From: a virus
Direction: 5' to 3' (one strand)
Virus record (IMG/VR): IMGVR_UViG_3300048813_000106
Span: 1 to 54,990 of that record
DNA length: 54,990 nucleotides
Part shown: positions 2-54,990 of the stretch, one piece after another
How the letters are laid out: each line of letters opens with the position of its first letter
Position numbering within the stretch: position 1 is the first letter of the stretch
The notes under the pieces: model-generated
Told to the model about the DNA's origin: nothing
Databases searched by the model: none
What the model saw: the letters and a program-made list of their open reading frames with translations, nothing else
Made by a program: the position numbers and the translations under genes

Positions 2-175
2 CAAGCCCTCGGAGGCGGCCCTATCGCGCTCATCATCTCCGGTGCCATAGCGCTCTACGTGAGCTGGCGTTGGAAGCAGGTGAAGGCCGAGGAGCACCGG
101 CGTCAGGTGGTTGCTGACGAGCAGCTAAGGCTCGACGTGCTGCACCGCCGCGAACGGGAAGGACGGACCCCATGA
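2..175 (+). CDS. C-terminal part of a small membrane protein (5' cut by window edge)
   Basis: The reading frame is open from the first bases and stops at the TGA in 173-175. The visible 57 residues begin with a hydrophobic helix (PIALIISGAIALYVSW, about residues 7-22), followed by a strongly charged Lys/Arg/Glu tail. A single membrane span with a charged cytoplasmic tail fits a holin-like or other small phage membrane protein, but no family is recognisable. The stop overlaps the next start as ATGA, so the two are translationally coupled. The true N-terminus lies outside the window. Confidence 0.6.
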   Translation, partial: QALGGGPIALIISGAIALYVSWRWKQVKAEEHRRQVVADEQLRLDVLHRREREGRTP

Positions 176-22659: not shown

Positions 22660-25350
22660 TCAGGCTTCGGGGGTCACGACAGGGTTGTAAGACAGGCCAG
22701 AACCCACATGCGGGGCAGACGGCGCGTCAGCAAGCAGGAACGTCTCTCCGTCGCGGTCCCCGCCATGCGTCTGCAAGCCCACGACCCGCGGACTGGACCC
22801 GTAAGCAACGAGAGACGCAGCCCGCTGCATCGCGGCCGTCTCATTCGCTGCGATCAGCTCCGAGCGGTAGCCAACACCAGCTTTCACGAACCTGCCTGCC
22901 GGTACCGCCTTGCGTATCCGTTGCGCTGTACGGCCTGGGTCCTCTCCGGCCTGCACACCCGCCTCTACGGCCTTCAAGATGGCCTGGCGGACCTGGGGTT
23001 CGATATCACGACAGGAGAGCTTCCTAGAGCCCTTTATGCGCCGGATATCGGCATCCGCGATAGCGAGGTCAAGGCCGGTCTCCGTCTTGAGCAGAAGCTC
23101 CGTGTCACGCGCCACCCTGCCCGCATGAGCGGCAAGAGCCGGAGTCAGGCGCTGCTGAACCCACGCGGCGATCCCGAGAGACCGGACTACCTTCGCGGTG
23201 ACGCTGCGCATCTCGCGTTTCCCGGTCGGCAACTCACCCTTACGCACCGTCGTCAGATATGCGCTCGCAGCACGCGACCCAAGCTCCTGCAGCAACCCCG
23301 TCATCTGACCGTCCAGGGCACCGGAGAGGACCCTCGCACGCGTCGCTAGTGCAGGGCCTACGTCGATCACCTGCCCGTCAGCCTTCGCTAGCCGCGCCTG
23401 CCCAAAAGGGACACGGAGCACTTCCTCCCCGCGGTGCACTGAGAGATGGGTGAACTTGATGGGGGTCTCCGGCAACGGGTCCGGGAGCGGGTCGCCCTCG
23501 TCCTGGTAAGTGAGCGTCACATGCGGGCGGAAGCCGCTGTGTTCGCTGGCGTTCAACGGCTCGAACGCGGCCCTGAGCTTGTCGAGACCCGCGATCTTCG
23601 GCACCGCGTACACCGGCACCTTGCCATCGCTCGCCTCCGAAGGCTCAAACGTCCCCTGACCGCCAACGGTGCCTTTCGGGGGCTTCGTGGTAGCCGCGAC
23701 ACTGCGTGCCGTCTCAACGGCCTGTGCGAACGTCTCGTCGTCCACGTCGCTGCCGAGGAGCACGACCGTCAGATGGTGGTCCTGCACCCCGTCGTCCATC
23801 GCTGGCAGCGTGCCTGGCACGAGGTCCAGCGACACCATCCCAGTGCCCTTGCCTACCTGCGCGGCGTCCTTCTGCAGCTTCGACGGTTCCAGTTTCCCGG
23901 CAGCAGGCTTCGCTGGTTCGACAGGCTTCGCGGGCGCCACGGGGAACGTGAAATCCGACCCCAGGCCAGCAGACTCGAACAGTTGCTTCTTGAACTTCGG
24001 GTCATCCGGCAACGTGAGGCCAGCAGCAGCCATGTTCGACAAGAACAGGCCGACCTTTTCGAGGTCTATGCGGCCCGCCGTGGTAGCAACGATTTTCGGG
24101 GGGTCGTTCGTCTTGACCCCATTCAACCTCAACAGGCGCGGGATGGCGTACCGGTTCATCGGCTTGAGGATCTGGTCAATCATGGCGTCCACAGCCATCC
24201 CAAAAAGCTCCGACTTCACATCGACCATCGCATACGAGCCAAGGCCGTCCTGCCCCAGGAGCATGAAGTCAGCGGCCACGCTTGCGGCGATCCTCTGCTC
24301 GTACCGGCGGATCACCTTGTCCAGGTCAAACTGGCGGGACCCCGCCGCCGACATCAATTCGAACTCCCACTCCGCTGTCGGGAAAACGAGCCCCTCGTCC
24401 TCATCCCTATGGACAGTGGTAACGAGTTCCGTTACACGGTTATACAGCTCCGTGTTCTCCTGCGCGAACAAGTCCACACCCGGAGGCGGCTTCGCTATCG
24501 GGATACCCGCAAGGTCTCTCGCTGCGCCCACGGCCTCGATGTCCTGTAGGCCACGCAGCCGGAAGAATGACGGCCAGCTACGACGCAAAATCGAATAGCC
24601 TTCTGGATTGTTCCTGACACGCCGGTTGCGGATCAGCACCAGCTTTGTGATCGGAATGTTGTGGTGGCCGCCGTGCCAGTCGAGCTGCTCAAGGCCACGC
24701 AGGCTGCTGTACCCGTCGAAATGCCAGTGCAGCGTGGTTTCCTGGGCACGCAGCGGCAGCTTCCGCCACCCGACAAGACCGTCCGTGTACGCGCTACTGC
24801 CGGGGTGCTGGGGTTCTTCGGTGGTAGGCGTCTCGTCGTCTGAACCCATTTCGTCCTGGCCCGGCTGTTCACCCCGGCGGTACTTGAACACTTCCTCCAT
24901 CGCCGCATACCCATAAGGCAGATGGGTCAAGGCTTCGCAGATGAAGTCGTCCCAGCCATGCGACATGTCGTGCATCGATTGCTCAATGTGATTGCGCCAG
25001 CGGGGTTCGCCACCCTCAACCGAGTAGTCCACGCGCTGCGCGAGCATTTCGATCATGAACAAGAAGCCGCCCGCGATGGGGTCGTTATCTAGAAATTCGC
25101 GGTAACGCCACGCGGCCTCGCGGCCTTGGAGTTCCCCAAGCCACTCATCCAACACCCAGCCTGACCACTGTCTGAGACCCGATGTCCCGATCTCCACGAA
25201 CGGCGAGACCTTGCGCGGACCCTGGGACTGACGGTCCCCTACGGCCATCGGGCGAACGATGGCCGTAGCACCACCAGTAGATGAAGACGTGGAGCTACGC
25301 GACCCGATAGCGCGTGCACCTTGGGAGCCGCCGCGAGACTTATTCGCCAT
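22660..25350 (-). CDS. Portal protein fused to a 2H phosphoesterase domain and a MuF-like C-terminal region, 896 aa
   Basis: ATG at 25350 is preceded by GAGGAGG. Residues about 60-480 are a portal of the DUF935/Mu gp29 type (WRYREFLDNDPIAGGFLFM, HLPYGYAAMEEVFKYR, ITKLVLIRNRRVRNNPEGY). A Pro/Ala/Lys linker (485-515) follows. Residues about 520-665 carry two H-x-T motifs, HLT (H526) and HVT (H610), 84 residues apart and each in a hydrophobic strand (HLTVVLLG, HVTLTY). That is the signature of 2H phosphoesterases (LigT/2'-5' RNA ligase superfamily). Residues about 670-896 are helical and resemble a divergent MuF-type region (SELIAANETAAMQRA). The portal lies at the unique capsid vertex, so the 2H enzyme would be packaged in the virion. 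Two of the three parts are firm; the MuF part is weaker. Confidence 0.88.
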   Translation of the reverse strand: MANKSRGGSQGARAIGSRSSTSSSTGGATAIVRPMAVGDRQSQGPRKVSPFVEIGTSGLRQWSGWVLDEWLGELQGREAAWRYREFLDNDPIAGGFLFMIEMLAQRVDYSVEGGEPRWRNHIEQSMHDMSHGWDDFICEALTHLPYGYAAMEEVFKYRRGEQPGQDEMGSDDETPTTEEPQHPGSSAYTDGLVGWRKLPLRAQETTLHWHFDGYSSLRGLEQLDWHGGHHNIPITKLVLIRNRRVRNNPEGYSILRRSWPSFFRLRGLQDIEAVGAARDLAGIPIAKPPPGVDLFAQENTELYNRVTELVTTVHRDEDEGLVFPTAEWEFELMSAAGSRQFDLDKVIRRYEQRIAASVAADFMLLGQDGLGSYAMVDVKSELFGMAVDAMIDQILKPMNRYAIPRLLRLNGVKTNDPPKIVATTAGRIDLEKVGLFLSNMAAAGLTLPDDPKFKKQLFESAGLGSDFTFPVAPAKPVEPAKPAAGKLEPSKLQKDAAQVGKGTGMVSLDLVPGTLPAMDDGVQDHHLTVVLLGSDVDDETFAQAVETARSVAATTKPPKGTVGGQGTFEPSEASDGKVPVYAVPKIAGLDKLRAAFEPLNASEHSGFRPHVTLTYQDEGDPLPDPLPETPIKFTHLSVHRGEEVLRVPFGQARLAKADGQVIDVGPALATRARVLSGALDGQMTGLLQELGSRAASAYLTTVRKGELPTGKREMRSVTAKVVRSLGIAAWVQQRLTPALAAHAGRVARDTELLLKTETGLDLAIADADIRRIKGSRKLSCRDIEPQVRQAILKAVEAGVQAGEDPGRTAQRIRKAVPAGRFVKAGVGYRSELIAANETAAMQRAASLVAYGSSPRVVGLQTHGGDRDGETFLLADAPSAPHVGSGLSYNPVVTPEA

Positions 25351-35302: not shown

Positions 35303-35932
35303 CTAAGGCCCTGTGCCTGGCCCGATGGACCGGAGGTGCTGTCCGAGGAACCGTAGGGCCTCACGCTGCACCTCAGGGGGCAGCCCCAAAGCCTTCTCAG
35401 CCAACGCCATCCTCGCAGCGGCAGCCAGGAGGCCCATGGACTCTTCCTCCATAGCGAGACGCTTCGTAGACACACCAGCGTCGATAGCGTGCTTCGACAC
35501 ACGATCCCACCGTACAGCAGCCTTGTCCATCTCTTCCATGTACGGGTGGATCGCAGCTTCGCCCTTATGGTTCTGCCACAACAACAGATCCCCACTGTCC
35601 ACGAGCTGCTCACAAGCCAGCTTCCAAGTCGCATAGCTAAGAGCCTCAAACCTAAGCAGAGCCTCAATATGCGCCAACGGATCGGACCCCAGCTCAGCAA
35701 GCCACGGCTGCGCCTCAGCCTCCCTCGCAGCCCACTGCAAAGCCGTCTCACGCGCAAGACGCTCAGCAGCCTTCTCACGCACACGTTTCGTCACACCATG
35801 CGACGTACAAATCGTCGCGCCCTTCAACGGCCTCCGCGTACAACGCTCCCCAGCACGCTCATGACTCGCCCTGAACACATGCACACACTGATACGGAAAC
35901 ACCGTCTGCGCAGGCAAAACCCCCGAACCCAT
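35303..35932 (-). CDS. Possible terminase small subunit, 209 aa
   Basis: The N-terminus carries CVHVFRASHERAGERCTRRP, then ATICTSHG. This C...C...C-x-x-HG arrangement is seen in phage proteins that precede terminases, after which a helical region follows (VREKAAERLARETALQWAAR). The end RMALAEKALGLPPEVQREAL is helical too. Assigned by pattern only. It is separated from terL by some 8 kb, which is unusual. Confidence 0.5.
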   Translation of the reverse strand: MGSGVLPAQTVFPYQCVHVFRASHERAGERCTRRPLKGATICTSHGVTKRVREKAAERLARETALQWAAREAEAQPWLAELGSDPLAHIEALLRFEALSYATWKLACEQLVDSGDLLLWQNHKGEAAIHPYMEEMDKAAVRWDRVSKHAIDAGVSTKRLAMEEESMGLLAAAARMALAEKALGLPPEVQREALRFLGQHLRSIGPGTGP

Positions 35933-36004
35933 AGGCCCATCCTACCCAGAAGCACCCACAACGCCACACGCAGCGGACGCGAGAACGGCTCCTGTCATCG
36001 TCGT

Positions 36005-36355
36005 CTAGAGGTGTGGGTGGGTGGCGTGGGGCATTTCGAGCGCGTCTTTGCGTATGGCGGCGCCTGCTGCTTTGTCTCTGCTCGTGGCTCTGGAGGGTCG
36101 CAGGGCTTCTGTGAGTGCTGCGTCGTAGCCCGGCGCTATGCAGTGGCGTCTGTCGGGGGTCGTGGTGTTCGCTGGCGGGGTAGCGCTGTAGTGCGTGTGG
36201 TAGAGGATTAGTTTGCCGGTGCCCTCGCAGGTGTGGCAGAGGTGTCCGTCTATGAAGCGTTCCACGAGCCCTTGGGCGTACAGCATGCGCTCGCGGCCAC
36301 GGCCCTTGCAGTCGGGGCAGAGTTTGTCCGCTAGCGTGATGTCGGGAGCGTGCAT
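36005..36355 (-). CDS. DnaJ-type zinc-finger protein, 116 aa
   Basis: ATG at 36355 has GGAGG 6 bases upstream. Two C-x-x-C-x-G-x-G repeats, CPDCKGRGRE and CHTCEGTGKL, 27 residues apart, could bind one zinc as in the DnaJ cysteine-rich region. The C-terminal half is disordered and His/Thr-rich. The J domain is missing, so it is not a co-chaperone proper. Confidence 0.65.
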   Translation of the reverse strand: MHAPDITLADKLCPDCKGRGRERMLYAQGLVERFIDGHLCHTCEGTGKLILYHTHYSATPPANTTTPDRRHCIAPGYDAALTEALRPSRATSRDKAAGAAIRKDALEMPHATHPHL

Positions 36356-36507
36356 GCGGGCCTCCGGAGGGGTGGTGTAGAGATAGTTCGGGTAGTGGCT
36401 AGGCGCGCCGCATTGGCCTTGCTGGCGGTGCCTGGTTGGGCAATGTAGCACGGAGCACCAGTGCGATTTCGCCTACGCCTTCGATTCCGGTCGGGGCGCT
36501 TTGCGTC
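36356..36507. other. Non-coding gap of 152 bases
   Basis: Between the DnaJ-like gene and the 36508-36678 gene. A plus-strand frame from 36436 exists but has no ribosome site and unlikely composition. I see no terminator or promoter with certainty. Confidence 0.3.
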
Positions 36508-36678
36508 TCAGGGCCGGAGCTGCAGGACGAACGCAGCGACCATCAGCAGAGTCACGAGACCGTAGGCGAAGCGCCGAGGCCACCGTCGTACAGGCCGGTA
36601 GTAGCGGCGCAGCATGGACGCACACGCTGATTCATCGCACGCTCGCTGCCAGTCCTGGACGCTATGAAGGTCGCCCAC
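36508..36678 (-). CDS. Small membrane protein, 56 aa
   Basis: GTG at 36678, three bases after the upstream stop. The sequence begins MGDLHSVQDWQRACDE and ends with a basic stretch (RRYYRPVRRWPRRF) followed by one membrane helix (GLVTLLMVAAFVLQL). By the positive-inside rule the N-terminus is in the cytoplasm. Unknown function. Confidence 0.5.
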   Translation of the reverse strand: MGDLHSVQDWQRACDESACASMLRRYYRPVRRWPRRFAYGLVTLLMVAAFVLQLRP

Positions 36679-36680
36679 GG

Positions 36681-36926
36681 CTAGAAGATCCTTTGGTCGC
36701 TACGACGGCCTGAGCCGCCGCACGCGTGGCATCTGTGGAGGTCGTCGGGGCAGTTGCCTAGCGGATCGGAGCCTTCGTCGCAGGTACCCTCGCCGCCGCA
36801 GTGCGTGCAGCCCCACTCTGGATCGAACTCGTAGTCGTCGCATGAGCACTCCTCGCAGGAACCCGAATGGAAGAAGTCGGCATGCCCGCATTTGCAGGTA
36901 TCGCCCTTGATGTCCTCGCCTCTCAC
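36681..36926 (-). CDS. Cys-rich zinc-binding protein, 81 aa
   Basis: GTG at 36926 is in GTGA with the upstream stop, with GGAAGG before it. Four Cys clusters: CKCGH, CEECSC, CTHCGGEGTC, and CHACGGSG near the end. It fits small phage proteins with C-x-x-C-G-G-x-G knuckles and the ending S-x-x-R-S-D-Q-R-I-F. It may bind two zinc ions. Unknown role. Confidence 0.65.
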   Translation of the reverse strand: MRGEDIKGDTCKCGHADFFHSGSCEECSCDDYEFDPEWGCTHCGGEGTCDEGSDPLGNCPDDLHRCHACGGSGRRSDQRIF

Positions 36927-37165
36927 TTCGCTGCCTTCCATGTAGCCAGCCGTCCCGTCTCCGTCAACCACCAAGCCAACGGACGCCCACGAGCCGACTC
37001 ATCCCGCACACCACGCAACAAGCCCTCACGCTCCAATCTGCGCAGGAGCTTGGAGAGCTGCCCACGATCCGACACACCCACCTCGTGGCCTATCTGCACG
37101 TTCGAGGACCCAGGGTGATGTTCGATGGCTTCTAGGACCGCTCTTGTACGGGCTGTGCGTCTCAT
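36923..37165 (-). CDS. Winged-helix DNA-binding protein, 80 aa
   Basis: ATG at 37165 overlaps the upstream stop (ATGA). The order VLEAIEHHPGSSNVQIGHEV, then SDRGQLSKLLRRLEREGLL and a wing with RGRPLAWWLTETGR is that of MarR/ArsR-like winged helix domains. Probably a transcription regulator. It sits near the divergent promoter region at 37390-37504. Confidence 0.75.
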   Translation of the reverse strand: MRRTARTRAVLEAIEHHPGSSNVQIGHEVGVSDRGQLSKLLRRLEREGLLRGVRDESARGRPLAWWLTETGRLATWKAAK

Positions 37166-37441: not shown

Positions 37442-37488
37442 TTGACAAGAACGTGGAAAGCGTGCTACCTTGTTCTCGTTACCGGAAC
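37442..37488 (+). promoter_or_regulatory. Promoter with shared downstream element GTTACCGGAAC
   Basis: TTGACA at 37442-37447 and TACCTT at 37466-37471, spacer 18. Twelve bases after the start of the -10 box comes GTTACCGGAAC (37478-37488). The same combination recurs at 51042-51065 (minus) and 54151-54173 (plus). AGGAGG and the ATG at 37505 follow. It should drive the plus-strand early genes. Confidence 0.75.
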
Positions 37489-49917: not shown

Positions 49918-51021
49918 CTAAAGCTCCATCGAGGCTTGGCCGTCCACGCCCTCCGGTGGAGGCGTAGTCAACGCGTCAAGCTCAGCCTCCGCATCCGAAC
50001 GCTGCTGCTCAGACAGGTCATCCCCCGCGAGCGCCTCCTCAAGGCCCTCCACGCGCCCCTTACGGACACGCTCAGCCAAATCCAGCTCCTCCTCGGTCGC
50101 CTCCACAGGATCACCCACCTGCAGCGGCTCAGGAGCCTCTACAACCTCCGCGTCAGGGACAGCCCCCTCCGCATGGGCAGAGCGTTCCCGTAGCTCAAGG
50201 ATCGCGCTCTCGATAGCCTCCAACTCCACAGACACCCGGTAGCCCGCCAACCCCTTGAACACCAGTTCGACCTTCGCCGCTGACCAAGAGTGCGGCGCGA
50301 GACTGTTCTGCTCATCCATCAAGTCCTTCGCGCGTTCCTGCTGCTCCAACGGGATGTTGTCGATTATCGCGTCCAGCAGGGCACCACGGTCCTCCGGGCC
50401 AGCAGAACGCCCGCTAGTGCCGCCCGGCTCGCCGTCACGGGCACCGGAGGCGGCCACGCCTTCCAAATCCTCCGGTGTGTAGACGGGGATGCCGCGCATC
50501 GTCTCGGGCACCAGCAGCTTCACGCCCTGGCTCATCGCACGATTCCAGAACATAGCGACGGGATACTTGATGTGGTTGGACTTCGCGCCATTCGAGGTGG
50601 GCTTATCCAGCTCCGCGAGCTTGCTCTGCTCAGGCCCCCACTCCGAGACGCCCTCAGACTCGCCGTTGCGGAAGAACTCAATCGCCACACCCTCAGCGCC
50701 CATGCTCTTGACTTTCCAGTCGTAGCCCTCACGGGAGCGGACAAGCGTCCCGAGGAGGGTACCCCGGAGCTGCGCGTGACCCTTCACGATGTCGATACCC
50801 AACATCGACTGCGCAGGGTTCAAACCAAGGTGATGACCGACGAGCATGCGAGCGAACGCCTGCTCGGCCTGCTCGACATCCTTGAACATGCGTCCAGCGC
50901 AGAGAGCCTTCGCCTCCCGCCAAAGCATGGTCATCGTCGCATCCTGCAGCGTCAGACTCCCATCGGGAATGTCCGCAGGGGCGGCGGGCGGACGGTCTAC
51001 GGCGGTGCTCGGGCTGCTCAT
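49918..51021 (-). CDS. RecT-like single-strand annealing protein, 367 aa
   Basis: ATG at 51021 with GAGGAG upstream. Residues about 30-205 hold TMLWREAKALCAGRMFKD, LGLNPAQSMLGIDIVKGHAQ, LRGTLLGTLVRSREGYDWKV, SNHIKYPVAMFWNRAMSQGV and KLLVPETMRGIPVYTPED, the RecT-type core. The rest is acidic, low complexity (Glu/Ala/Pro). It should anneal single strands made by the nuclease encoded further down. It is behind its own promoter with the shared GTTACCGGAAC element. Confidence 0.88.
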   Translation of the reverse strand: MSSPSTAVDRPPAAPADIPDGSLTLQDATMTMLWREAKALCAGRMFKDVEQAEQAFARMLVGHHLGLNPAQSMLGIDIVKGHAQLRGTLLGTLVRSREGYDWKVKSMGAEGVAIEFFRNGESEGVSEWGPEQSKLAELDKPTSNGAKSNHIKYPVAMFWNRAMSQGVKLLVPETMRGIPVYTPEDLEGVAASGARDGEPGGTSGRSAGPEDRGALLDAIIDNIPLEQQERAKDLMDEQNSLAPHSWSAAKVELVFKGLAGYRVSVELEAIESAILELRERSAHAEGAVPDAEVVEAPEPLQVGDPVEATEEELDLAERVRKGRVEGLEEALAGDDLSEQQRSDAEAELDALTTPPPEGVDGQASMEL

Positions 51022-51041
51022 GGGGAGTCTCCTCACGTTCG

Positions 51042-51065
51042 GTTCCGGTAACGGACGGGACGCTA
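51042..51065 (-). promoter_or_regulatory. Promoter of the RecT operon with shared element
   Basis: On the minus strand TAGCGT (51065-51060) could be the -10. It is followed 13 bases on by GTTACCGGAAC (51052-51042), identical to the element at 37478. The -35 is not clear. A GAGGAG ribosome site and ATG follow. Confidence 0.55.
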
Positions 51066-51095
51066 CCACAAACACGTGACGACCCCTGAGACAGC

Positions 51096-51130
51096 GCTGG
51101 CCCCGCCGTCTCTGCAGGGGCGGGGCCAGC
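51096..51130. terminator. Perfect 12-bp hairpin
   Basis: GCTGGCCCCGCC (51096-51107) and GGCGGGGCCAGC (51119-51130) are exact inverted repeats with an 11-base loop. No T run follows. Could stop transcription from either side or be a protein site. Confidence 0.5.
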
Positions 51131-51281
51131 AAGTCGCTGTGTCGCGAGGGCTGTTACCGGGAGTTTCCGAGGAGACAGCCGTACCCCCGCGAACCAGCAG
51201 GAGCATAGCCGACGACAGGTCTACCCTTCCTGGGAGCTTCGGTCTCCGGCATGCCGGTGGGTCGTGGTGCTTCTCCGGGCT

Positions 51282-51305
51282 CGGCCCTGCCTTCGGGTGG
51301 GGCCG
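51282..51305 (+). terminator. UUCG-loop hairpin followed by TTTCC
   Basis: CGGCCCTGCC (51282-51291) pairs with GGTGGGGCCG (51296-51305) with two G-U wobbles, around a TTCG tetraloop. A short T run follows. Good candidate for an intrinsic terminator on the plus strand. Directly after it lies a second repeat, GTTTCCG-TC-CGGAAAC (51305-51320). Confidence 0.55.
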
Positions 51306-51514
51306 TTTCCGTCCGGAAACTAGACGCGACGGGCGGCAGTGCACCCCGATTGCGGCCCCGAGACTGCCCTTCGTTTACCGGGCTCGCTGCTCCCTCCCTT
51401 CACCCAGAGCTCTAGGTCCATCAGGCGCTGCGTTGAGAGCAGGTGTCATCCCGTCGCGTTGCAGGCGAGCATACTCCGAGGACCAGCAACCACCGTAGCC
51501 CCCCTGAAACGACG

Positions 51515-51564
51515 GGAGCCCGCCAGTCCGAGGACTTGACGGGCTCCGCGAAAACAACTACTGT
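51515..51564 (+). promoter_or_regulatory. Promoter overlapped by a nested inverted repeat
   Basis: TTGACG (51536-51541), 17-base spacer, TACTGT (51559-51564) is a good sigma-70-type promoter. GGAGCCCG (51515-51522) and CGGGCTCC (51540-51547) enclose AGTCC-GA-GGACT (51525-51536), so a repressor site or hairpin covers the -35. It would transcribe the structured stretch and the primase gene. Confidence 0.6.
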
Positions 51565-51891
51565 GCTCGATCGTGGAAAAGAGCAAGGGAAATATTAGCG
51601 ACTGGCCAGGCGTAGCGCCAGTCGTGCCCGCAGGCGCGTAGCAGGACCGCAACCGACGCGGGTAGTCCGTCGGTCGATCGGCACCTCCTACACCCGGACT
51701 GGCCGGGGAAGAGAGTCAAGCGCTGCGCAGCGGCAACCCGTCCCGCGAGAGGCCCCCGGAAAGGGCCGAAATCTTGGAAAACCGAGTGGGGAACAGCGTG
51801 GAGGAAACGATGGAGTCTCTTCGCCCATTACGTATAGGGGAAAAACCTTCGTCCCCGCGCAAGGCAAGAGATTGAAGAGAAAGAAGGAGAA
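51565..51891 (+). ncRNA. Candidate structured RNA leader (or origin region) upstream of the primase gene
   Basis: From the promoter to the primase GTG there are about 327 bases with no ORF worth calling. Successive hairpins: CGACTGGC/GCCAGTCG (51599-51624), ACCGACG/CGTCGGT (51652-51674), CCCGG/CCGGG (51693-51707), CGCTGCGCAGCG (51721-51732), GGCCC/GGGCC (51751-51767), CTTGG-AAAA-CCGAG (51773-51786), GGGGA/TCCCC (51837-51856), TGGGG/CCCCA (51893-51906). The last one holds the start codon. Purine-rich A/G stretches lie between 51864 and 51892. It may be a regulatory leader, an independent RNA, or part of the replication origin. No known RNA family recognised. Confidence 0.45.
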
Positions 51892-52404
51892 GTGGGGAAA
51901 TCCCCAAACAGCATTAGAGCCTTGGAAAGAAAGGATTGCGTGATCTATACCTTTGGACAGCTCCAGGCGGAAACGCGCGAGCTGGACGGCCCCGGACGCA
52001 AATCGTATTTCGAGGCGCTTCCTGAGCCTCAGCAGCGCGAGGCATGGCGTACTTTGCGCGAGACGACGGAGTTCCGGCGTGCGCTACGAGAACCGCGTGC
52101 GGTGCGAACCGACTGGCGTGCTATCGGCGACCGGCTACGCGAGCTGCCTGCTACGGAGTATGTGCAGAGGATCGCCGGACGTGAGATTGAGGACCGTCAG
52201 CGGATCACCTGCCCGTTGCCGGACCATGACGACCACACCAGCGACTTCGGTATACGCCAAACGGGCTGGCATTGCTTTGGCTGCAATCGCGGCGGCACGA
52301 TCTACGACTTCGCGGCGCTCTATTGGGAGCGTGGCGAAGACCCGAAGGGCCAGATGTTCAAGGCCGTGCGCACAGAGCTGGCGGAAATGTTCGGACTCAT
52401 CTAA
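51892..52404 (+). CDS. CHC2 zinc-binding primase-domain protein, 170 aa
   Basis: GTG at 51892 with AAGGAG upstream. The CHC2-type motif ITCPLPDHDDHTSDF ... GWHCFGCNRGG has the Cys/His ligands of DnaG primase zinc domains, with GTIYDFAALYWER behind. The catalytic TOPRIM domain is absent, so it may act with another primase part or as a regulator of priming. First gene of the plus-strand replication set. Its start codon lies in a TGGGG/CCCCA hairpin. Confidence 0.82.
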   Translation: MGKSPNSIRALERKDCVIYTFGQLQAETRELDGPGRKSYFEALPEPQQREAWRTLRETTEFRRALREPRAVRTDWRAIGDRLRELPATEYVQRIAGREIEDRQRITCPLPDHDDHTSDFGIRQTGWHCFGCNRGGTIYDFAALYWERGEDPKGQMFKAVRTELAEMFGLI

Positions 52405-53644: not shown

Positions 53645-54141
53645 CGATAGACCCTGGCAATGTTGAATCGGCGCTCCTGCTGTACGACACTGAGCAGGAA
53701 ACCCCGGTTAGGTTCGCGAAGCTCCCCAACGACGAGGCGTTGCTTGCTCTCGATGACTGGCCTGCGGAGAAGCTCGCGGTTGAGATGATCGCCTCATACG
53801 GCATGGCAGTCGGGGCGTCCGTGTTTGACACGTGCGTCGCTGTTGGGCGGTTCCTTGAGCGCTGGACGCATAGCGACGGCCGCTGGCGGGAGCTTGAGGG
53901 AGAGCTTGTGTTCCGCCGCGAGGTCAAGATGCATCTCTGCGGCTCGATGCGCGCGAAAGACGCCAACATCCGCCAAGCGCTACTCGATCTTTACGGCGGG
54001 AAGGAGCATGCGATAGGACGCAAGGCCGCTCCCGGTCCGCTGTACGGGATCGCGGGAGATGTCTGGTCCGCGCTGGCTGTCGCCGTGACTGTCGCCGAGC
54101 GTGTGCCTGTGGCTGAGTCGGACCAGCTTGCTCTCGTCTGA
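53632..54141 (+). CDS. RuvC-like Holliday junction resolvase, 169 aa
   Basis: Acidic catalytic residues in the RNase H-like order: LLAIDPG (D7), VEMIASYGM (E51), and AGDVWSALAVA (D143). VKMHLCGSMRAKDANIRQAL and PGPLYGIAGD are hallmarks of the actinophage RuvC-like family. It should cut four-way junctions produced in recombination and replication before packaging. A shared-element promoter begins inside its last codons. Confidence 0.85.
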   Translation: MQLLAIDPGNVESALLLYDTEQETPVRFAKLPNDEALLALDDWPAEKLAVEMIASYGMAVGASVFDTCVAVGRFLERWTHSDGRWRELEGELVFRREVKMHLCGSMRAKDANIRQALLDLYGGKEHAIGRKAAPGPLYGIAGDVWSALAVAVTVAERVPVAESDQLALV

Positions 54142-54173
54142 GATCCTTGCTACCTTCCTGGGTGTTACCGGAA
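54128..54173 (+). promoter_or_regulatory. Promoter with shared element GTTACCGGAA
   Basis: TTGCTC (54128-54133), 17-base spacer, TACCTT (54151-54156). Thirteen bases after the start of the -10 box stands GTTACCGGAA (54164-54173). The -10 box is identical to that at 37466. AGGAGG and an ATG (54194) follow. Confidence 0.65.
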
Positions 54174-54193: not shown

Positions 54194-54990
54194 ATGCCAG
54201 ACAGGCTGATTGCCTACCACGGCGACCCAGCACTCAAGGACGAGGCGATGGCGAAGATCGCCGCACACCGAGCCGCAGACGAGATCGCAAAGGGTGCCTA
54301 TGTCCGCGCAGGCATCAAACCCACCTACTGCGCTGTGGGATGCCTCCTAGAGGACCCAGAGGGCGGCCACATGCGCTACGAGTCCGAGTTCGGCATCCCA
54401 GCCCAGCTCGCCTACCTGGAGGATGGGATCTTCGAGGGCTTGCCCGACGAACTGGCGATCCCGTGGCCCGAGCGGTTCATGGGCGCCATCGCACCCGGCG
54501 CGGACTTGTCGAAGGTGTGGCCCAGGTTCGTGATCTGGTTGATGGTTGACCCGGAGTGGGGGCTGGTGAACGTCACGGAGGCGCAGGACGTGAAAGTGAT
54601 CTGCCGCCGCGTGGCCGACGGCTACACCCGCGACGTCCAGGGCGAACCCCTCACTGAGGAGGACGTGGAGGCCCTTGCGTGGGCTGCGCGGGCTGCGTGG
54701 GCTGCGTGGGATGCGTGGGATGCGCGGGATGCGCGGGCTGAGTGGGCTGAGTGGGCTGCGCGGGCTGCGCGGGCTGCGCGGGCTGCGTGGGATGCGCGGG
54801 ATGCGCGGGCTGCGCGGGCTGAGTGGGCTGCGCGGGCTGCGTGGGCTGCGCGGGCTGCGTGGGATGCGTGGGATGCGCGGGATGCGCGGGCTGCGCGGGC
54901 TGCGTGGGCTGCGCGGGCTGCGTGGGATGCGCGGGATGCGTTCACTATTGCCAGTGCTGACGCCCTCGTTGCTCTCCTCGCAGAGACGAT
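54194..54990 (+). CDS. Phage protein with long Ala-Trp/Arg-Ala/Asp repeat (3' cut by window edge)
   Basis: ATG at 54194 follows AGGAGG and a shared-element promoter. N-terminal part: [53 protein letters not shown] and [15 protein letters not shown], a pattern known to me from many actinophage proteins of unknown role. From codon 162 it has 29 three-residue units A/E-W/R-A/D, then [15 protein letters not shown]. The frame runs past the end of the window, at least 265 codons. Unknown function. The repeat length likely varies between strains. Confidence 0.7.
54677..54937 (+). repeat. 9-base tandem repeat, 29 units, inside the last gene
   Basis: Units follow GCG-(T/C)GG-G(C/A)T, with three units (two of them adjacent) starting GAG. 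All 29 keep frame and encode A/E-W/R-A/D. The near identity at DNA level, including wobble positions, points to recent expansion by slippage. Confidence 0.85.

Follow-up and report, generated by a model that had tools for sequence, protein, structure and literature searches.

A probable bidirectional early promoter/operator region between the recT-like and primase-like operons of a phage from metagenome records

The stretch of DNA analysed here (the window) is the entire IMG/VR record IMGVR_UViG_3300048813_000106, which comprises 54,990 bases. Minus-strand structural genes, including a Mu-type portal recognised by Pfam and a terminase recognised by PHROG, extend to approximately 37 kb. A DUF3631/methyltransferase operon occupies the plus strand from 37.5 kb. 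The recombination operon, which encodes exonuclease-like and RecT-like proteins, runs leftward from 51.0 kb, and a primase-like operon runs rightward from 51.9 kb. The features of the divergent interval that separates these two operons, together with related loci elsewhere in the window, are listed in Table 1. A related record, IMGVR_UViG_3300046478_000024 (41,575 bases, hereafter G007), served for comparison.

The portal is approximately 38% identical to those of Arthrobacter phages, and a protein encoded in the recT operon shares 42% identity with one from Microbacterium phage ClearAsMud (genus Quhwahvirus); these similarities hint at an actinobacterial host. The portal gene (22660-25350, 896 residues) features an additional, unexpected match to the 2'-5' RNA ligase superfamily at residues 526-625 (Pfam PF13563, E 8e-7). 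At the end of the record (54680-54945), a tandem repeat codes for a tryptophan/alanine/arginine-rich repeat protein and may have broken the assembly.

Coding potential was assessed from codon usage, with a score trained on 20 of the record's genes. No frame in the 51022-51939 region scores like the genes of this record: long ORFs crossing it score between -0.09 and -0.39, compared with 0.37 for recT, and a hidden gene was rejected on this ground. The initial annotation, which had been made from the sequence alone, placed the primase start at GTG 51892. GTG 51940 is the better choice, as the 51892-51939 segment scores -0.23 and the gene read from 51892 scores 0.17. The 870 bases said to lack a credible gene are thus borne out, and the interval, at 918 bp, is slightly longer. 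Its setting had been described as a genome in which genes overlap, which is only partly fair: approximately 85% of the record is coding, and several further gaps of 400-570 bp are present. In the codon-usage gene set, the 918-bp gap is the second largest in the record. Since a weak zinc-domain match marks at least one ORF of the largest (35828-36922), the 51022-51939 interval is probably the longest that is truly gene-free. The match in that larger gap (ORF 36005-36451) is to a DnaJ-type CXXCXGXG zinc domain and falls below the cut-off.

Table 1. Features of the divergent interval and of related loci (positions in the window).
Feature	Position	Strand	Evidence or remark
Small winged-helix protein, candidate regulator of GTTACCGG sites	36923-37165	-	Pfam HTH_24 above cut-off; PHROG 2440 transcriptional regulator
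Second class member, TTGACA-18-TACCTT (extended -10) + GTTACCGG; gene 37505, DUF3631 operon	37443-37485	+	
RecT-like single-strand annealing protein, first gene of the leftward operon	49918-51021	-	PHROG 4171, E 5.5e-9
Gene-free divergent interval (918 bp) between recT-like and primase-like operons	51022-51939		coding-potential and gene-gap scans
GAGGAGAC, ribosome-binding sequence of recT (ATG 51019-51021)	51027-51034	-	sequence
GTTACCGG at the expected recT transcription start, putative operator	51045-51052	-	recurs at 37478, 54164 and in G007; conserved in G007
Extended -10 TGGTAGCGT of the recT promoter; no -35 match	51060-51068	-	one of only 7 TGnTAnnnT on both window strands
Perfect 12-bp hairpin, 11-nt loop; outer helix extends to about 51088-51143	51096-51130		first among the 50-nt folds of the window
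Conserved island CGGTAACAGCCCTCGCGACAC, upstream of the hairpin	51139-51159	-	19 of 21 bases identical in G007
Second GTTACCGG, inverted relative to the recT copy	51153-51160	+	108 bp away (97 bp in G007, reading GTTACCGA)
UUCG-loop hairpin, terminator-like on the plus strand	51282-51305	+	best 0.3% of 36-nt windows
Imperfect 33-bp dyad over the -35 of the rightward promoter, putative operator	51515-51547		best 0.07% of 36-nt windows
Putative primase-operon promoter TTGACG-17-TACTGT	51536-51564	+	one of only two TTGACN-16..18-TAnnnT in the window
Purine-rich primase-operon leader, eight GGAAA	51565-51939	+	61% purine, more than any other 375-nt window
AT-richest 150 bp of the record, candidate unwinding element	51805-51954		AT-content scan
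ORF of 21 codons with GGAGG ribosome site, possible leader peptide	51810-51875	+	read from sequence
CHC2-zinc-ribbon primase-like gene	51940-52404	+	Pfam PF01807, E 6e-4, below cut-off; start by codon score
Third class member, TTGCTC-17-TACCTT (extended -10) + GTTACCGG; gene 54194	54128-54171	+	

The recT end of the interval features a promoter signature composed of an extended -10 element (TGnTAnnnT), a gap of 6-8 nt, GTTACCGG, a ribosome site and an ATG. This promoter class, like the GGAAA cluster and the AT-richest 150 bp described below, was absent from the initial annotation. Three members occur in the window (recT, the DUF3631 operon and gene 54194) and two in G007, namely, recT and the head of an operon that runs rightward from contig position 28.4 kb and has a counterpart of the DUF3631 region. 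Thus, the same short sequence is found upstream of several start codons in one genome. Exact GTTACCGG copies number four in the window, and three of them (37478 plus, 51052 minus and 54164 plus) lie just before a ribosome site and ATG; the background for such a distance is 1.3% of positions (binomial p 8e-6). The same is true of two of the three exact copies in G007 (p 4e-4). TGnTAnnnT lies 6-7 nt before GTTACCGG in four of the five members, and the fifth, G007 recT, has TGCTATAGAT instead. Conversely, three of the seven TGnTAnnnT sites of the window precede a GTTACCGG. A search with the promoter pattern allowing two mismatches returned only the class members, all with none. Copies of GTTACCGG with at most one mismatch show no overall enrichment in the window (40 versus 36.3 expected), and the evidence therefore consists in position and context. 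These elements, their positions and their recurrence, as well as the recT-side conservation in one relative, are read directly from the DNA.

Members of the class differ at the -35 position: TTGACA is found at the 37478 member and at its G007 counterpart, and the recT promoters of both the window and G007 have no -35. The matching operon of G005, the third of the related records, is headed by TTGACT-16-TACGGT, again with an extended TG; a variant of the element, GTTACCCG, follows further downstream. A sigma-70 consensus scan, which applies a stricter -10 rule, accordingly reported no promoter in the region. The palindrome GTTWCCGGWAAC was considered as an enriched genome-wide element and rejected (6 versus 3.5 expected). 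A text search of the literature for GTTACCGG gave nothing relevant among the matches listed, which is no claim of absence from print.

Judged by its spacing, GTTACCGG in this class would cover approximately +1 to +8, a position at which a bound protein would prevent transcription from starting. The best candidate for a regulator of the GTTACCGG sites is the winged-helix protein, which is 75% identical in G007 and is encoded divergently from the DUF3631 operon.

The region was matched in one of the 12 records reached, G007, and so was the RecT tail. Searches of viral contigs with the leader pattern, the RecT tail and a neighbouring protein each returned only G007. The G007 record extends only approximately 107 bp upstream of the conserved block at the recT start, and the comparison therefore covers approximately 140 bp adjoining recT in this one relative. 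The conservation in relatives on which the initial annotation had made its reading depend could be followed in that segment only, and there the result is in favour of conservation. The 41 bp around the recT start are 90% identical. The alignment consists of near-identity at the start and ribosome site, an unalignable middle and a second conserved island, CGGTAACAGCyCyCGCGACAC.

The annealing proteins themselves differ. A Pfam RecT domain is present in the G007 protein (E 8e-18), whereas the Pfam search gave no match for the window protein; the C-terminal tail is common to both (77%). The annealing-protein slot (49918-51021; L016:4283-5440) thus combines differing N-terminal domains with a common tail and common upstream control DNA, and looks like a domain swap inside one gene.

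In further searches, the interval DNA had no match among phage records, and the same was true of the exonuclease and the winged-helix protein. RecT had one weak match there, S-LBS1, which does not share the neighbourhood, and the primase had three weak matches. In viral contigs, the RecT query found no match, and the primase-like gene found five loci; as these match the zinc-ribbon part only and lie in other gene neighbourhoods, they are of no use for the leader. A search for the HNH gene returned seven loci (42-55% identity). The hairpin pattern search gave no match, and alignments of the RecT tail and the exonuclease to genome contigs gave none.

Among the class members, only recT has an inverted second copy of GTTACCGG. 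The spacing between the copies differs between the window and G007 by 11 bp, about one helical turn in this single comparison. No -10 precedes the distal copy at 51153. The entire leader unit of recT (GTTACCGG, 8 nt and GAGGAGAC) recurs in rightward orientation at 51153-51176, again with no -10 before it and with GTA in place of the start codon. The outer CGGTAAC/GTTACCG repeats have an RNA pairing probability of 0 in the window and approximately 0.48 in G007. DNA sites are therefore favoured, and the GTTACCG inverted pair is unsupported as an RNA helix in the window.

Between the two copies lies the perfect 12-bp hairpin, which the initial annotation had placed correctly and which exceeds chance. 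Perfect 12-bp stems with loops of 3-12 nt occur only twice in the window, here and at 25239-25268, within the 5' part of the portal gene. The strongest 50-nt fold measures -35.0 kcal/mol in the window and -38.9 kcal/mol in G007 (z -4.2 and -4.7), and ranks first among all windows scanned in either record. The two folds occupy the matching place (n=2), and their stem sequences are unlike and unalignable. A random spot would match this slot in approximately 0.3% of cases, as estimated by hand from 108 of 41,575 bases. When both strands were folded in 120-nt steps, only the recT-proximal end stood out (51000-51119 minus, z -3.84) against a background of 150 windows (mean -0.18, sd 1.03, minimum -3.72). 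The G007 stem consists of 19 pairs and folds better as minus-strand RNA (-49.9 kcal/mol) than as plus-strand RNA (-33.3 kcal/mol), because G-U pairs exist only on the recT-sense strand. In the window, the two strands fold equally well (-38.4 and -40.2 kcal/mol). There is no T-run on either strand of the 51096-51130 hairpin, and the terminator scan reported none there. With no U-tract after the stem, it is not a canonical intrinsic terminator. It probably stops leftward read-through as RNA, which is the least certain step of the mechanism outlined below.

All motifs named in the initial annotation are present where it placed them, and some of them exceed chance. The UUCG terminator-like hairpin exceeds chance. 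The remaining named elements, GTTTCCGTCCGGAAAC (5.5%), CCGGCATGCCGG (10%) and CGCTGCGCAGCG (65%), do not. The eight or so hairpins reported up to the primase do not amount to a signal, as the 340 nt at 51566-51905 fold no better than shuffles (z -0.05), and structured RNA in the primase leader was rejected on this ground. Nor does either strand of the 51160-51560 region show excess folding (z 0.29 and -0.92). In a genome this rich in GC, most of the hairpins listed earlier are nothing unusual. Base composition predicts approximately 20 exact 12-bp palindromes in the record; five are present, two of them in this interval. Such a shortage is as expected under palindrome avoidance. The earlier statement that no RNA family matches holds for an Rfam search of 50900-52000, which returned none at E<=1. 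The non-coding RNA proposed at the same time finds no support: apart from the recT-proximal hairpin there is no excess folding, and no evidence of a larger structured non-coding RNA was found.

On the rightward side, the only other TTGACN-16..18-TAnnnT site in the 55 kb scanned is that at 37443. Approximately one such site is expected by chance (hand estimate from base composition), and placement therefore counts above number. The promoter lies under an inverted repeat, as had been noted earlier, and the dyad exceeds chance (Table 1). Downstream of it, GGAAA is the most enriched 5-mer of the leader (eight copies versus 0.30 expected, Poisson p 1.4e-9). The plus strand carries 48 copies of GGAAA across the record, eight of them in 51565-51939, where their spacing is irregular. 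CsrA-type AnGGA sites were considered and rejected (4 versus 3.1 expected).

These data suggest that the interval is probably a bidirectional early promoter/operator region of the phage. The regulatory role that the initial annotation had listed among several possibilities is supported by elements resembling promoters at the left and the right; one class of these elements is found again elsewhere in the genome and shows partial conservation in G007. On the leftward side, an extended -10 promoter would start the recombination operon at or next to GTTACCGG. Because the unit of promoter, element and ribosome site heads two other transcription units, a single regulator acting throughout the phage, possibly the winged-helix protein, most likely uses GTTACCGG as its operator. 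At recT the inverted copy lies about ten helical turns upstream of the first, and the regulator could hold both sites. The strong hairpin between the copies, kept by structure and not by sequence, would most likely act as RNA on leftward transcripts: by stopping or stalling interior read-through, it would leave recT expressed only from its own regulated promoter. On the rightward side, a separate and separately regulated promoter, TTGACG-17-TACTGT, lying under the 33-bp dyad, would start the primase operon with its long purine-rich leader. The transcription starts, the regulator binding, the looping and the action of the hairpin in this scheme are what we infer from the arrangement of the elements.

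If correct, this reading has consequences for a phage group known here from metagenome records alone. The signature TGnTAnnnT, 6-8 nt and GTTACCGG would allow the early regulon and its regulator to be predicted from sequence, and the hairpin offers a clean case of folding strength kept without sequence at one address.

The recT-side element might instead be a transcribed RNA regulator, either an attenuator or a put-type antitermination site, that is read from a leftward promoter further upstream and is not an operator. We regard this as unlikely. Strong structure kept with different sequence, the minus-strand folding asymmetry in G007 and the conserved stretches on both flanks of the hairpin would all suit an RNA, but no good leftward promoter is present upstream of 51160 (the best scores are 7 at 51597 and 6 at 51207), and the outer CGGTAAC/GTTACCG pairing is nil in the window and partial in G007. 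Moreover, two further promoters of the window carry GTTACCGG, and the 14 strongest folds include neither of these places.

The primase side raises the question of a replication origin, which the initial annotation had also considered. A putative promoter with a downstream A+T-rich element, as in T4-type origins, is present in the sequence (51536-51564 and 51805-51954). A transcript from approximately 51571 could form an R-loop in the leader (51565-51954) and prime replication, making the region origin and control region at once; the recT-side hairpin could then act as a single-strand structure. We hold this to be doubtful. The position of the AT-richest 150 bp of the record (51805-51954) argues for it, although this segment begins approximately 235 nt past the expected start. 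No 375-nt stretch is richer in purines than the leader, which carries eight GGAAA, but their spacing is irregular, and iterons are absent from the repeat scan. An iteron-type origin was rejected, as there is no direct-repeat array in 50950-52000. Plus-strand third-position skew is -0.167 in the minus genes at 42.6-51 kb, -0.097 in the plus genes at 37.5-42.4 kb and +0.053 in the plus genes at 51.9-55 kb, and cumulative GC skew reaches its minimum near 51 kb. However, the skew turns where the genes change direction, a skew of -0.175 (n=160) is seen in the plus genes at 0-1.6 kb, and no initiator gene was found. Quite improbable, in our judgement, is a more elaborate version that would make the region both early control centre and replication origin: the purine-rich transcript from approximately 51571 would form R-loops with the AT-richest DNA beside the primase, and the hairpin module, conserved in fold only between the inverted recT operators, would have stayed while the annealing domain was exchanged. 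The origin question for this phage group narrows to one 375-bp leader.

It is very unlikely that the interval is the debris of a decayed gene whose old leader survives as GTTACCGG, 8 nt and GAGGAGAC at 51153-51176. This plus-strand copy does repeat the recT leader arrangement, and the frame after it is open to 51498; yet that frame scores -0.26, the ribosome-like site is followed by GTA in place of a start codon, no -10 precedes the copy, and part of the copy is conserved in G007. Least probable of all is that a non-coding RNA of its own, several hundred nucleotides long and of the ornate or sRNA type, fills the primase leader. The long untranslated purine-rich leader with hairpins and A-rich loops and the UUCG terminator-like hairpin at 51282-51305 would speak for it, and the z of -0.05 for 51566-51905 and the empty Rfam search at E<=1 stand against it.

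A bidirectional promoter/operator region would place this phage among those with structured or operator-controlled divergent early promoters, such as HK022 with its put RNAs and lambda with OL/PL and OR/PR. Unlike HK022 put, the interval features no similar leader on its two sides and no Rfam match, and the literature search made for this comparison found nothing. Unlike lambda, no repressor/cro pair was identified beside the region; control here would involve two inverted GTTACCGG copies, and the sole candidate regulator is encoded 14 kb away.

Start-linked repeats, namely, the EC, EF, EG and EI motifs, are described in Microbacterium phages (PMC7302621). In cluster EC (the Quhwah group), an 18-bp intergenic motif lies 21-30 bp upstream of start codons and before the ribosome site, mostly at non-structural genes, with 12 copies per genome and all genes in one direction (PMC7302621). 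In our reading, this motif resembles the GTTACCGG class in its place and in combining a -10-like TAnnnT with a fixed block. In contrast, its sequence differs, its 12 copies compare with three in the window, and the excerpts available of that paper describe no inverted partner or hairpin (PMC7302621). A 15-kb ClearAsMud stretch contains one GTTACC and no GGTAAC, and GTTACCGG is not among the repeated upstream words of that phage. In cluster K mycobacteriophages, Start Associated Sequences (SAS) are tied to non-structural start codons, and the extended form (ESAS) adds upstream inverted repeats (PMC3203893). As conserved elements linked to start codons, they are similar to GTTACCGG. However, SAS lie at the ribosome site and ESAS repeats are 17 bp with spacers of mostly 4-13 bp (PMC3203893), whereas the GTTACCGG copies are 8 bp, approximately 100 bp apart and preceded by an extended -10.

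Cluster O mycobacteriophages carry 17-bp palindromes at 34 sites genome-wide, about a third of which are inside genes (PMC4351075). An intergenic terminator with an 18-bp stem is also reported for them (PMC4351075). They share with the window short repeated sites in a two-direction genome; their sites are widespread, whereas the palindrome GTTWCCGGWAAC is not enriched here. GTTACCGG differs from the consensus of the EC motif, SAS, the cluster O palindrome and the EG inverted repeat as given in the excerpts of these sources. Finally, T4 oriF and oriG consist of a promoter with a downstream A+T-rich stretch (PMC3016281). The rightward side of the interval, as known from its sequence, is similar in layout, with a putative promoter followed at approximately 235 nt by an A+T-rich stretch.
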